DNA of 47,543 bases, from NCBI GenBank assembly GCA_013824015.1, contig PNNC01000211.1:1-47543 (forward strand), read 5' to 3'. The position numbers were made by a program, and so were the translations under genes. The notes under the pieces were generated by a model. It saw nothing but the letters and a program-made list of their open reading frames with translations. It did not search any database and was not told where the DNA came from. The stretch's first letter is position 1, and every line of letters begins with the position of its first letter. This DNA comes from Polaromonas sp. GTDB lineage: Bacteria > Pseudomonadota > Gammaproteobacteria > Burkholderiales > Burkholderiaceae_C. Positions 16,909 through 21,669 of the stretch are shown piece by piece.

Positions 16909-18620
16909 GCACCAAGCTGGACATCTACAACCCGACGACGTTCTACCTTGAACTCGAGCGCAGCGGCCTGATCACGCAGGACCAGGCCGAAATTGCCTGG
17001 ACCGAGCGCGAGAAGCGCGGTGGCTCGTTCGGCGACATCCTGGTCAGCCTGGGCATGTTGTCCATCGATGACCTGACCGCGATCATGGCGGCGGCCAGTG
17101 CGACCGAGGCCATCAAGCTCAGCGACATGGTGCCCGATGACGCGGCCATCAAGCTGATCCCCAAAACGCTGGCGCAGAGTTACGACGTGTTCCCGGTCGG
17201 CTTCGATGCCGACAGCCGCAAGCTGACGGTGGCCATCACCGATACCAACGACGTGGTGGCGATGGACCAGTGCCGGTCGGTGGTGCCGGTGGACATTGCC
17301 CTGGCCTGGCGGCTGGCGTCCAAGGCCGACATCAAGGCTGCGATTGACCGCTTCTACGGTTATGCCTTGTCGATCGATGACATCCTCAAGGGCTTGCGCA
17401 CCGGCAAGATGGATGACGACGCCCTGTCGATGCGCGGCATCGAGGCTTTTGCGCATCCGATTGTCCGGCTGATCGATGCGCTGCTGGCCGATGCCGTGCA
17501 CGAGGGCGCGTCCGACCTTCACTTCGAGCCGGAAGAAGGATTCTTGCGGATTCGTTACCGCATCGACGGCGTGCTGCGTCAGGTACGTGTGCTGCACAAG
17601 CAGTACTGGCCGGCGCTGTCGGTCAGGCTCAAGGTGCTGTCGGGCATGGACATCGCCGAAACCCGCGCGCCGCAGGATGGCCGTATTTCCATGGTGATCC
17701 GCGGCCACGACGTCGATTTCCGGGCCGCTGCACAGCCGACCATCCATGGCGAGAATTTTGTGCTGCGTGTGCTGGACCGGCGCAAATCGATTGTTCCCAT
17801 GGACAAGATGGGCCTGCCCGAGGCGCGCATGAATACGCTGCGCCTGATGCTGGCGCGGCCCTACGGCATCATCCTGGTGACCGGGCCCACCGGTAGCGGC
17901 AAGACCACGACGCTGTATTCCATCCTCAACGAGATGAACACCGAAAGCGTCAACATCATGACGCTGGAAGACCCGGTGGAATACCCGATGGCGCGTATCC
18001 GGCAGGCCTCCGCCGCGGACAACCCGAAGATGGATTTCGCCAACGGCATCCGTTCGATGATGCGGCAGGATCCGGACATCATCCTGGTCGGCGAGATCCG
18101 CGACCACGAGACGGCCGAGATGGCTTTCCGCGCTGCCATGACCGGCCACCAGGTGTTCTCCACGTTGCATGCCAATTCGGCGGTGCTGGCCATCGCGCGT
18201 TTGCTCGACCTCGGCATTCCCGCCAGCGTGATGACCGGCAACCTGATTGGCATCGTGGCCCAGCGCCTGGTGCGCCTGCTGTGCCCGAAGTGCAAGGAGG
18301 CTTACGAGGCCGGGGAGGTTGAAAAAACCCTGCTGGGCGCGCCGGTCAAGCTGCCGCTGACGCTGTATCGCGCCGTGGGCTGTCCGCAGTGCAAGGGGCA
18401 GGGCTACAAGGGCCGCACCAGCATCATGGAACTGCTGCGTTTCGACATGGGACTCGACGACCTGCTGTCGCGCAATGCCCGCACGCCGGAGATATCGGCC
18501 TACGCACGCAGCAACGGTTTCACCACCATGGCCGAGGATGGGCTGTCCCGCGTGAAGGCCGGCACCACCTCGCTCGAAGAGGTCGCCCGCGTGGTGGACC
18601 TGACCCGCGTGGGGACCTGA
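16905..18620 (+). CDS. mshE: MSHA pilus extension ATPase MshE (GspE/PilB family)
   Basis: The 571-residue hexameric assembly ATPase powers pilus extension from the cytoplasm. Residues 1-150 form a GspE/MshE N-terminal region (GGSFGDILVSLGMLSIDDL). The ATPase core has Walker A GPTGSGKT (327-334), Asp box TLEDPVEY, Walker B ILVGE (393-397) and His box TGHQVFSTLHAN (413-424). The tetracysteine zinc site is C460, C463, C493 and C496. Related MshEN domains bind cyclic-di-GMP through an RLG-containing motif; here that position reads SFG, so binding is doubtful. It starts with GTG inside the mshN stop (GTGA). mshG begins at the last base of its stop codon. Confidence 0.94.
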   Translation: MSTKLDIYNPTTFYLELERSGLITQDQAEIAWTEREKRGGSFGDILVSLGMLSIDDLTAIMAAASATEAIKLSDMVPDDAAIKLIPKTLAQSYDVFPVGFDADSRKLTVAITDTNDVVAMDQCRSVVPVDIALAWRLASKADIKAAIDRFYGYALSIDDILKGLRTGKMDDDALSMRGIEAFAHPIVRLIDALLADAVHEGASDLHFEPEEGFLRIRYRIDGVLRQVRVLHKQYWPALSVRLKVLSGMDIAETRAPQDGRISMVIRGHDVDFRAAAQPTIHGENFVLRVLDRRKSIVPMDKMGLPEARMNTLRLMLARPYGIILVTGPTGSGKTTTLYSILNEMNTESVNIMTLEDPVEYPMARIRQASAADNPKMDFANGIRSMMRQDPDIILVGEIRDHETAEMAFRAAMTGHQVFSTLHANSAVLAIARLLDLGIPASVMTGNLIGIVAQRLVRLLCPKCKEAYEAGEVEKTLLGAPVKLPLTLYRAVGCPQCKGQGYKGRTSIMELLRFDMGLDDLLSRNARTPEISAYARSNGFTTMAEDGLSRVKAGTTSLEEVARVVDLTRVGT

Positions 18621-19822
18621 TGCTCGAGTTCAGCTACCGGGCCGTGACCGCCGAAGGCCGGACCATTTCCGGCCGGCAGTCGGCCACCAGCGAATCCGAC
18701 CTGGAAGCGCGGCTGGGGCGCATGCAGCTGGAATTGCTGCAGGCCAAACCGGTGCGTACCGCCTCGGTGTTTGCGCGGAAAAAGCTCGAGAGCAAGGAGC
18801 TGATCAACATCTTCATTCACATGCAGACCTTGAGCCAGGCCGGTGTACCCCTGTTCGAGTCGCTGATCGATTTGCGCGATTCCGCGGACACGCCGAGCGT
18901 GCGGCGCTTCATCTCGGACCTGGTGGACCGCATCGAGGGCGGTGCCAGCCTGTCCGACGCGCTGGAGCAGTCGCCGGCTGGCATCGACAAGGTCAACATC
19001 AGCCTGATCCGCACCGGCGAGGCCACTGGCAAGCTGCCCGAGGTGCTGGCCGAACTGGTCGAAAGCCTGAAGTGGTCCGATGAAATCGCAGCCCAGACCA
19101 AAAAGCTGCTGATGTACCCGGTGTTCGCCGGCACCATTGTGCTGGGCGCCGTCGGTTTCCTGATGATTTACCTGGTGCCGCAGTTGATCGGTTTCATCAA
19201 GAATCTGGGGGGCGTCGTTCCGATCCAGACGCGCGCGCTGGTGGCGTTTTCCAATTTCCTCGTCGGTTATTGGTACACCATCCCGGTGGGTGTGGCCGCG
19301 GTTGCGGCTGTCTGGATCACGGCGGTTCGCATGTCGCCCGAGGCCAGACTGTGGGTCGATGGCTGGAAACTGAAGTTTCCGCTGTTTGGTCCCATCCTCA
19401 AAAAAATCATCATGGCGCGTTTTGCCAGGTCGTTCGGGCTGATGTACCGCAGCGGTGTGTCGGTGCTGGATGCGATGGGGTTTTGCGAAAGCCTCTCGAC
19501 CAATGCGGCCTTCCGCAAGGCCATTGGCAGCGCCGCCCGGAGCATTTCCCAGGGGCAGAAGGTGTCGGATGCCTTCGCGGCGACCGCGCTGTTTCCGGCG
19601 TTGGTGGTGCGCATGATCCGAGTCGGCGAAACCACCGGCGGCCTGGACAAGGCGCTGGACAACGTCAGTTATTTCTATACGCGCGAAGTCAACGATGCGA
19701 TCGAGAAATTGCAGGGACTGATCCAGCCGGTGTTGACGCTGTTCCTTGGCGGCATGATCGCGTGGATCATGTCGTCGGTGATGTTGCCGATCTACGACCT
19801 GATTTCCAAGGTCAAGTTTTAG
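18620..19822 (+). CDS. mshG: MSHA pilus inner-membrane platform protein MshG (GspF/PilC family)
   Basis: The 400-residue protein has two T2SSF domains (about 64-188 and 265-388), each with the GxxL...ALE/ALD pattern (GGASLSDALEQSP, GQKVSDAFAATALFP). TM helices lie at about 168-190, 216-236 and 370-392, and the usual MLPIYDLI C-terminal end is present. It forms the rotating inner-membrane platform driven by MshE. The start is the ATG at 18620 (TGATG overlap with mshE); the frame stays open upstream within mshE. Its TAG stop (19820-19822) lies across the left edge of the inverted-repeat element, so that element was inserted exactly at the gene end without losing protein sequence. Confidence 0.93.
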   Translation: MLEFSYRAVTAEGRTISGRQSATSESDLEARLGRMQLELLQAKPVRTASVFARKKLESKELINIFIHMQTLSQAGVPLFESLIDLRDSADTPSVRRFISDLVDRIEGGASLSDALEQSPAGIDKVNISLIRTGEATGKLPEVLAELVESLKWSDEIAAQTKKLLMYPVFAGTIVLGAVGFLMIYLVPQLIGFIKNLGGVVPIQTRALVAFSNFLVGYWYTIPVGVAAVAAVWITAVRMSPEARLWVDGWKLKFPLFGPILKKIIMARFARSFGLMYRSGVSVLDAMGFCESLSTNAAFRKAIGSAARSISQGQKVSDAFAATALFPALVVRMIRVGETTGGLDKALDNVSYFYTREVNDAIEKLQGLIQPVLTLFLGGMIAWIMSSVMLPIYDLISKVKF

Positions 19823-20087
19823 GGCCTGCCCACACTATTTATGCAAGATGCGTTGCGAGTCAAAAAGGTCATGCGCGAGGCGCAAAACGCAGCCGGGCTT
19901 GCGCCCGGCAAGGCTTTGCAACGCGGCGCATGGCCTTTTTGGCCGCAACCCGGAGGGAACGGGGTGAAAACAGCACCACTCGTTGTTGCACTCCTAGCCC
20001 AGCCGCCCAGGCTGGGCGTCGTCGCGCGCCTAGATTGGCACTGTTTTCACCCCGTTCGCACTTGTATAAATAGTGTGGACAGGCCCT
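19821..20087 (+). mobile_element. MITE-like cloverleaf element with 27-bp terminal inverted repeats
   Basis: The left end (19821-19847) and right end (20061-20087) are inverted copies matching at 25 of 27 positions, beginning AGGGCCTG. Inside are two independent hairpin arms. The left arm pairs 19852-19876 with 19926-19949 and holds a tip stem GCCGGGC/GCCCGGC (19892-19909). The right arm pairs 19957-19973 with 20041-20057 (17 bp, perfect) and holds an 8-bp tip stem (19997-20017). No protein fits; open frames across it are by-products of the symmetry. It separates mshG from mshI in an operon whose neighbouring junctions overlap. A clear target-site duplication was not found. Confidence 0.75.
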
Positions 20088-20091
20088 GGCC

Positions 20092-21669
20092 ATGACCGCT
20101 TTCGCCCTTGTCATCGCGCAGCAGTCGGTACACCTGTACCGGATGGATCGCGCCGGGGCAGAGCCGGTCGCGATTGCACACGCCCACGACGACCCGGTGG
20201 CGTGGGTGGCCAGCCATCTACCGGCGCGCGCCGAGTGTTCGCTGGTCAGCGACATCATGGACGAGGCCTACATCCGCAACGTGTTGCCTCCGATCTGGCT
20301 TGCAGGCACGCGGCAGCAACTGCTGCAGCGGCGGCTGACGCAGCAGTTGCGCGACAACCCCTACCGCGCAGCGGTTCTGGAGCCTTCGGGGTCATGGCGG
20401 CCACCGATTCGTGTGAGCCTGATCGGCATGGGCCAGAGCGAGCGCATTGGGCAGTGGCTCAAGGCCTTGACGGCGCACCGTATCCGCGTCAAGGGCTTGT
20501 GGCCTTTGTCGGCCCTGATTGCACTTTCCGTGAATCACAAGGCCCCGCGCCGTGCGCGGGCCGATGCGGGTTCCGGCGCCGCGAACAAACCGCCGCCTGC
20601 CAGTGCACGGCCGGTTCTCGCGCTGGTGGCCACCCAGGCCGGCTTGCGCCAGGTGCTGGTACGGGGGAAAACGCCGCTTTTCTCCCGGCTGGCGCTCAGT
20701 ATGGGTGAGGGCAGCCTGTCGGCCGATTTTGTGCTGGCCGAGGCACGCCGGACCATCCAGTACCTGATCTCGCAAGAGTGGATCAGCAGCGCCGAGCAAC
20801 CGGTGGCCACGCAGATGTGGCTGCCATCGGAGGATGAGCAGGCGCTGGAAGCGGTTGCCAGCGACCCGGCGCTGGATCTGCAATTCATAGCGCCAGTGGC
20901 CGATGCCTATGCCTACTTGCTGCCGCGGCTCAAATCCGCCCCTGCGCAACTGCAGTTTCTGCCCGATGAGTCACGCACCCAGTGGCGCGCAGCCCAGGTC
21001 GCGCGCACAGCAAAGATCACGGGCATCACGGCGCTGGTGGTCGCGGTGCTCTGGTCTGCCGACCTGATGTGGTTGTCCTGGGGCAAACGCAACCTGGCCG
21101 AAGAGCAATTGATCCGCGCCGCAGCCATCAACCGCCAGGCCAATCAGGAGGTGTTGCGTGCCAAGGGCGACCTGACCGAGGCCGGCCTGGCCGTGGCGAC
21201 CGTGCAGGCCTGGAAGCAAACCATTGCGGCGCAACCCGACCAGCTTGCCGGCCTGCAGCACCTCGCCGCCGCGCTCAGCAATTCGCCCGGTGTGGCGGTG
21301 CAGAAAATCAGCTGGGAACTGCCGCGCCTGCCAGTCCAGGTGGCGGGTGCGCCGCCTGCACCCGCTGAACCCTTTGCCTGCCCCGTGGTGGTGGATGCCG
21401 CCGCTGCGGCCGCGCTGCCTCCCCCTGCCGAGCCGGCCAAACCCTCGCTGGCCTTGCTGAGCTTCAGCGCCGAACTTCCCCGTACCCTCACGCAACGCCA
21501 GGCGCTCGCCTTGCAGGACAGCCTGCTGACCAGCCTGAATGCCGGTGGCTGGTCGGCGTTTCTGCTGAAGTCCACCGTCACGCTGGATCCGGTCCAGGTT
21601 CAAACCGGCACGCTGGGCGAAGTCGGCGCGAGAACGCTTGAGTTGTGTTTGCAGAAGGCCGCCACATGA
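20092..21669 (+). CDS. mshI: MSHA biogenesis protein MshI, PilM-PilN-like fusion
   Basis: The 525-residue protein has a cytoplasmic N-terminal half (about 1-300) of PilM/GspL-like, actin-related type and one TM helix (about 309-329). Then come a coiled-coil stretch (about 332-390) and a C-terminal PilN-like periplasmic domain with an Ala/Pro-rich insertion (about 418-450). It would link the cytoplasmic motor to the periplasmic alignment complex. The ATG at 20092 is only five bases from the right end of the inverted-repeat element and lacks a good ribosome binding site; GGACAGG from the element is the nearest candidate. It overlaps mshJ by four bases. The family assignment is by layout and position. 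Confidence 0.78.
   Translation: MTAFALVIAQQSVHLYRMDRAGAEPVAIAHAHDDPVAWVASHLPARAECSLVSDIMDEAYIRNVLPPIWLAGTRQQLLQRRLTQQLRDNPYRAAVLEPSGSWRPPIRVSLIGMGQSERIGQWLKALTAHRIRVKGLWPLSALIALSVNHKAPRRARADAGSGAANKPPPASARPVLALVATQAGLRQVLVRGKTPLFSRLALSMGEGSLSADFVLAEARRTIQYLISQEWISSAEQPVATQMWLPSEDEQALEAVASDPALDLQFIAPVADAYAYLLPRLKSAPAQLQFLPDESRTQWRAAQVARTAKITGITALVVAVLWSADLMWLSWGKRNLAEEQLIRAAAINRQANQEVLRAKGDLTEAGLAVATVQAWKQTIAAQPDQLAGLQHLAAALSNSPGVAVQKISWELPRLPVQVAGAPPAPAEPFACPVVVDAAAAAALPPPAEPAKPSLALLSFSAELPRTLTQRQALALQDSLLTSLNAGGWSAFLLKSTVTLDPVQVQTGTLGEVGARTLELCLQKAAT

Follow-up and report, generated by a model that had tools for sequence, protein, structure and literature searches.

The inverted-repeat element lying between mshG and mshI in a Polaromonas sp. 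genome is best explained as a MITE with IS5/IS427-type ends that was inserted at a TA and moved in trans by an IS427-like transposase, a joint reading to which we assign, from sequence comparisons, a probability of about 0.92. The stretch of DNA analysed, 47,543 nucleotides of contig PNNC01000211.1, is called the window throughout. An IS5/IS427-type transposase acting in trans would recognise the GGGCCTG-type ends, as inferred from the ends, the target and the duplication, and would insert the element at TA, preferably at YTAR, duplicating the TA. In this GC-rich genome YTAR sites survive mainly between genes, often in the stop codons TAG and TAA, and the target here was a YTAG holding the mshG stop, just before the mshI ATG. 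The long internal arms remain paired in the aligned copies, for which templated correction of one arm by the other as DNA is synthesised would be the simplest cause. Of the readings offered in a preliminary description of this DNA, that of a non-autonomous transposon is supported by the other copies, the empty sites, the TA duplication and the matching insertion-sequence ends. Thereby, a striking operon insertion can be explained without new biology, and a genus-wide repeat is tied to a specific insertion-sequence group.

Position and predicted fold of the element

The 27-base ends of positions 19821-20087, described earlier as inverted repeats, are identical at 25 of 27 positions and form the terminal inverted repeats expected of a MITE; none of 20,000 base shuffles reached 24. 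In the predicted fold a terminal stem surrounds two long branched arms to give a three-way cloverleaf with an MFE of -172 kcal/mol (z -12.8), and none of 200 shuffles folded as well; this is the three-way junction suggested before. Both predicted arms carry the tip hairpins that had been noticed, and one has an uninterrupted 17-bp stem (GAACGGGGTGAAAACAG / CTGTTTTCACCCCGTTC). CCGGAGG at the junction of the fold forms a 2-bp hairpin. The placement at the mshG stop and before mshI stands, while the limits 19821-20087 are replaced by 19822-20086 through comparison with empty sites, which leaves an element proper of 265 bp with the duplicated TA outside. The mshG stop TAG consists of the TA at 19820-19821 and the first G of the element (G19822). 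The features are as follows:

18389-19822, plus strand: mshG, type II secretion F-like (T2SSF); listed open reading frame, whose true start is probably the ATG at 18620
19820-19821, no strand: left copy of the duplicated target TA (empty sites of G017, G033, G075 and G073 against the filled window and G026)
19821-19851, plus strand: left terminal inverted repeat, which forms the 5' strand of the stem at the base of the fold (25/27 match to the right end; structure)
19822-20086, plus strand: MITE proper, 265 bp, GGGCCTG...CAGGCCC (empty sites; two other full copies in its own genome; family alignment)
19852-19949, plus strand: internal arm 1 with tip hairpin GCCGGGC..GCCCGGC (fold; helices 2-4 of the covariation analysis)
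19950-19956, plus strand: 2-bp junction hairpin CCGGAGG (fold; helix 5 of the covariation analysis)
19957-20057, plus strand: internal arm 2, with a perfect basal stem of 17 bp and the tip hairpin GCCCAGCC..GGCTGGGC (fold; helices 6-9)
20058-20087, plus strand: right terminal inverted repeat, which forms the 3' strand of the same stem as the left one (fold; covariation analysis; 25/27 end match)
20087-20088, no strand: right copy of the target dinucleotide, TG in the window and TA in G026 (filled/empty comparison)
20092-21669, plus strand: gene in the mshI position, downstream of the insertion (open reading frame list; no Pfam match)

With 265 bp the element is below the limit of about 500 bp for a MITE lacking a transposase gene. 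That it encodes no protein, as had been stated, agrees with the open reading frames crossing it, which are short or read through from neighbouring genes. A promoter scan returned one weak minus-strand site each in the window copy and in the copies L019 and L030, and none in L012; a promoter at the right end was discarded as the TATAAA there is absent from the G025 subfamily.

The tight packing of the operon noted previously is seen in overlaps of 4, 4, 1 and 4 bases at the mshL/N, N/E, E/G and I/J junctions, and four bases (20088-20091) separate position 20087 from the mshI ATG at 20092. Pfam searches assigned T2SSF to MshG, T2SSE and MshEN to MshE and Secretin to MshL; MshI and MshJ had no Pfam match, so that their names rest on gene order.

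Copies across Polaromonas

BLASTN revealed three full-length copies in the host genome, that of the window included, at 100, 93 and 84%. The element was found in 11 of 61 genomes searched, its own included, and all 11 belong to one genus. Within Polaromonas, matches occurred in 27 of 87 genomes, again counting its own, of which four (G016, G031, G072 and G087) hold fragments only; at most eight candidates per genome were scored in this search, and the numbers of copies are therefore minimum values. A 24-base pattern from the interior, searched for without mismatches, was present in 83 stretches, and among the 80 matches listed 77 are titled Polaromonas, with one each from Hydrogenophaga, Ramlibacter and Rhodoferax. 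A plasmid collection searched with the whole element gave no match. Filtering reduced 354 profile hits to 180 full-length copies, to 96 without identical copies and, after removal of reverse-strand repeats and same-flank rows, to 90 non-redundant full-length copies, which occupy 81 sites among the loci fetched when grouped by their flanks. The family alignment contains 89 rows and leaves out the 284-bp copy L024. The search for further copies that had been proposed for this genome and its relatives therefore shows a multicopy, dispersed element, as is typical of a MITE.

Empty sites and target preference

The mshG-mshI junction could be aligned in 5 of 60 other genomes, of which four (G017, G033, G073 and G075) are empty and one (G026) is filled. 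The empty junctions read AAGTTCTAGCATG in G017, AAGTTCTAGCCATG in G033 and G075 and AAGTTCTAACCATG in G073, i.e., the pattern CTAGC..ATG in the first three genomes and CTAACCATG in G073. The filled junctions are AAGTTCTA[GGGCC...GGCCC]TAGCCATG in G026, where the TA duplication is evident, and AAGTTTTA[GGGCCTG...CAGGCCC]TGGCCATG in the window. The empty site of G017 (G017:C67:8784-10117, CTAGCATG) has one C fewer than those of G033 and G075. With empty relatives and a TA duplication, the proposed insertion between two coupled genes holds. A single copy kept at the same position in all relatives had been named as the pattern speaking against mobility; instead, the element is multicopy and four relatives are empty.

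TA is present on both sides at 45 of 81 independent sites, and the other 36 are without a clean TA on both sides. The target is YTAR at 32 of the 45 TA-flanked sites, compared with 31 of the window's 549 TA sites, and clean targets are often CTAG. IS5 itself favours YTAR. Such a preference in a GC-rich genome explains why stop codons beside start codons are hit, and the seemingly precise insertion needs no further cause, since a CTAG/YTAG target held the mshG stop.

Whether the two filled junctions go back to one event is answered differently by different parts of the sequence. The G026 copy, which has the same orientation as the window copy and has lost about 40 bp from its 5' side, has its nearest relatives at other sites (96.3% over 214 bases), and the window copy is closest to L008, also at another site (96.6%), as against 93.9% between the two; each being nearer to copies elsewhere than to the other, this suggests two separate insertions. 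On the other hand, the two copies have in common an unusual GCCCAC close to the left end, for which L047 alone among the aligned copies offers a near match, and this suggests one shared insertion. By mshG identity to the window, G017 is closest (91%) and has an empty site, while the more distant G026 (81%) is filled, which may reflect loss, independent insertion or gene transfer.

Maintenance of the fold

The fold is real and is kept between copies. The alignment of 89 copies has 98.2% of its cells paired over 101 pairs. Two-sided changes affect 51 of the 101 pairs and 474 cells; the shuffle means are 25.5 and 107.6, and none of 500 shuffles reached the observed values. At most 62 two-sided cells were obtained when partners were slid. 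The covariation analysis recommended earlier thus finds compensatory changes in abundance, as expected of a conserved fold in a cis-regulatory RNA. A fold kept as RNA is expected to tolerate G-U on the transcribed strand and not A-C. For pairs predicted on either strand, however, one-sided events amount to 92 from Watson-Crick to GT and 96 from Watson-Crick to AC, so that no wobble tolerance confined to the transcribed strand was detected, and because both changes are equally common, the covariation gives no indication of a transcript-specific RNA. The alignment energies of the two strands, -149.3 and -148.0, are likewise close. An apparent excess of plus-strand wobble (naively 361 GT vs 65 AC) was rejected because the structure had been predicted on the plus strand; with the minus-strand structure the counts are 65 vs 549, and on pairs common to both strands they are 59 vs 50. 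As a set of 90 palindromic copies, the family permits a strand-symmetry test that tells covariation and RNA function apart, and it carries the warning that in palindromic mobile elements covariation alone is no proof of a functional RNA.

From these data, DNA-level arm-to-arm correction seems to fit the covariation better than a transcript-specific RNA. We lean slightly towards the view that the compensatory changes arose by template-switch correction between the palindrome arms, i.e., by a mutation process and not by selection. In the union of pairs, 134 double changes from one Watson-Crick pair to another fall on single branches, 89 on terminal ones, compared with a total of 255 one-sided changes (92 GT, 96 AC, 67 other). 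Of 117 double changes in the pairs that both strands share, 57 are double transversions. The single-branch double changes and the symmetry of GT and AC fit templated arm-to-arm correction. Template switching was reported to create and maintain hairpins (PMC8794818). Against it, the columns scored also served to build the tree, and apparent double changes could be due to recombination between copies. Furthermore, the double changes of a terminal branch are seldom found in adjacent pairs, although tracts would be expected, and conservation is higher in paired than in unpaired interior columns (0.935 vs 0.855), which also fits selection.

Possible effects on the msh mRNA

The mshG-mshI spacing is 2-3 bases in relatives, and the insertion extends it by 267 nt of very stable predicted stem. 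As this parts genes that are so close elsewhere, the coupling of mshI translation to that of mshG is probably weakened or lost. By analogy, the stem may also create a double-stranded RNA processing site in the mshG-mshI mRNA, and processing by RNase III would parallel what is described for NEMIS (PMC2229807, PMC10969869).

Orientation was analysed with the direction of neighbouring genes scored by codon usage, and neighbours whose direction could not be assigned (17 of 81 right-hand, 27 of 81 left-hand) were left out. Where both neighbours run alike, the element follows their direction at 23 sites and runs against it at 8 (p 0.011); with the right-hand, downstream gene it is co-directional at 43 sites and opposite at 21 (p 0.008). 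This modest bias may stem from selection on surviving insertions, and it leaves room for a possible effect on mRNA. A terminator scan of four copies gave no consistent reason for the bias, with two minus-strand sites in the window copy and in L012 and one per strand in L030 and L019.

That the element is a functional cis-acting RNA, whose cloverleaf sets the mshG:mshI ratio by being processed or by sequestering the mshI start, with selection on the RNA keeping the fold, is considered unlikely. The very stable fold, the strong covariation in ends and internal arms, both orientation biases and the G026 copy, which occupies this junction in the orientation of the window copy, would fit such a role, and the related MITEs ERIC and NEMIS are described as acting on mRNA (PMC2229807). 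Against this, evolution is strand-symmetric and both strands fold equally well, the G026 copy lacks about 40 bp of the 5' side, four relatives do without the element, the three matches in Rfam all lie far below their gathering scores, and the orientation counts cover only neighbours of assignable direction. Of the earlier suggestion that a structured RNA sets the ratio of gene products, the part that stands is the fold kept with compensatory changes; the strand symmetry and the truncated G026 copy speak against the rest. Still more tentatively, the branched interior might be more than a passenger, and the MITE might have been recruited repeatedly as a ready-made module for processing or uncoupling within operons, its perfect fold being renewed by template switching rather than by selection, since copies prefer one orientation to downstream genes and two species carry a copy in the same orientation at mshG-mshI, possibly as separate insertions.

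Likely source of the transposase

IS5-family (IS427-like) insertion sequences have the outermost 17-20 bp of one end, the TA duplication and the CTAG targets in common with the MITE and are therefore its likely transposase source. In Polaromonas, two-ORF elements of the IS5 family (NF033580, PF13340) were found: five measure 828-835 bp and one 712 bp, both TAs counted, and all six lie at CTAG and have ends such as TAGGGCCTGTTAACGCTATCGAAG. One end of the insertion sequence at L287 equals TAGGGCCTGTTAACGCTAT of MITE copies in G032, i.e., 17 element bases plus TA. A search with the consensus end also detected an 820-bp two-ORF element on pBPHY01 of Paraburkholderia phymatum, which starts with CTAGGGCCTGTTCACACTATTTA and equals the MITE consensus end over 23 bases, CTA included (20 of the element). 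The likeness is limited to the ends, and the second end of each insertion sequence matches less well. The IS5-type element on the JS666 plasmid NC_007949 is annotated as 'IS5 family transposase', and NCBIfam names the transposase protein IS5 family, with one of two query fragments just under the cut-off. IS5/IS427 elements are described as 832-865 bp long, with mostly 2-bp repeats, as seen here in the TA duplication, and two overlapping ORFs (PMC3281130); by size, ORFs and repeat length the insertion sequences fit the IS427 group.

A search of the host genome (G000, 88.8% complete) for a PF13340 transposase as autonomous partner gave no matches. PF13340 matches occur in only 4 of 15 MITE-bearing genomes searched, some of them fragments, and a protein search for the IS5-type transposase gave matches in 24 of 87 genomes. 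Among MITE-bearing genomes, G067 (JS666) has an intact-looking partner and G004 and G080 have fragments; in G061, G070, G091 and G101 an IS5-type partner is present with no MITE match. The transposase gene with the same ends that had been proposed as a search target was therefore encountered in IS5-type elements of Polaromonas and P. phymatum, best at one end, and not in the host genome.

Mobilisation by an IS630/Tc1-mariner element, as proposed for RUP, would agree with the TA duplication and with DDE_3 transposases in 8 of 15 genomes, but it is very improbable, as 24 DDE_3 loci (up to 1.5 kb on each side, some cut by contig ends) showed no inverted TAGGGCCTG pair around the gene with one mismatch allowed, whereas IS5-type elements do carry such end pairs. 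An ordinary conserved, immobile intergenic structure of the msh operon, to which only the same occupied junction in two species would point, can be dismissed with near certainty in view of the copies elsewhere, the empty sites and the TA duplication.

Relation to known elements and derived forms

MITEs of Polaromonas sp. JS666 (Mattes et al., 2008) are mentioned in a review (PMC10969869), the only source to which a literature search on Polaromonas MITEs led, and the family is not claimed here as unpublished. The window element belongs to the same genus and is found in records titled Polaromonas sp. JS666; it may be of the same family as the MITE noted there. With the IS427 group of the IS5 family the element shares the outer ends (17-20 bp), the 2-bp TA duplication and the CTAG targets; the partners in Polaromonas and P. 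phymatum have about 820-835 bp and two ORFs, whereas the MITE lacks a transposase, and its cloverleaf interior is unrelated to theirs. ERIC/IRU, Correia/NEMIS and RUP are similarly small and multicopy, with TA termini, terminal repeats and stable folded transcripts (PMC2229807). Most of these are described there as stem-loops without arms, in contrast to the two branched arms of the window element; they occur in other hosts, RUP is linked to IS630, and the distinction is drawn from their descriptions. The Chunjie MITE of Geobacter uraniireducens, 235 bp and likewise inserted into an operon (PMC10969869), is from a different host and is likened by description only.

Several shorter relatives were observed. 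A sister family of about 171 bp, at 1193-1365 of L161 (G067:C1:1769300-1771900), has the same GGGCCTG ends and motifs similar to GATGCATTGG and CCCGAAGGG with a different and shorter interior, and like fragments occur in G084 and G067. Minimal derivatives of about 40-60 bp, little beyond the two ends back to back, lie beside TA in L149 (G026:C14) at 953-1007, in L035 (G026:C31) from 2441 and in L037 (G017:C71) from 2573. Near 7328-7493 of L231 lies a partial copy whose two strands match positions 1-131 and 1-129, respectively, at overlapping coordinates, and which is perhaps a symmetric derivative with two left ends.
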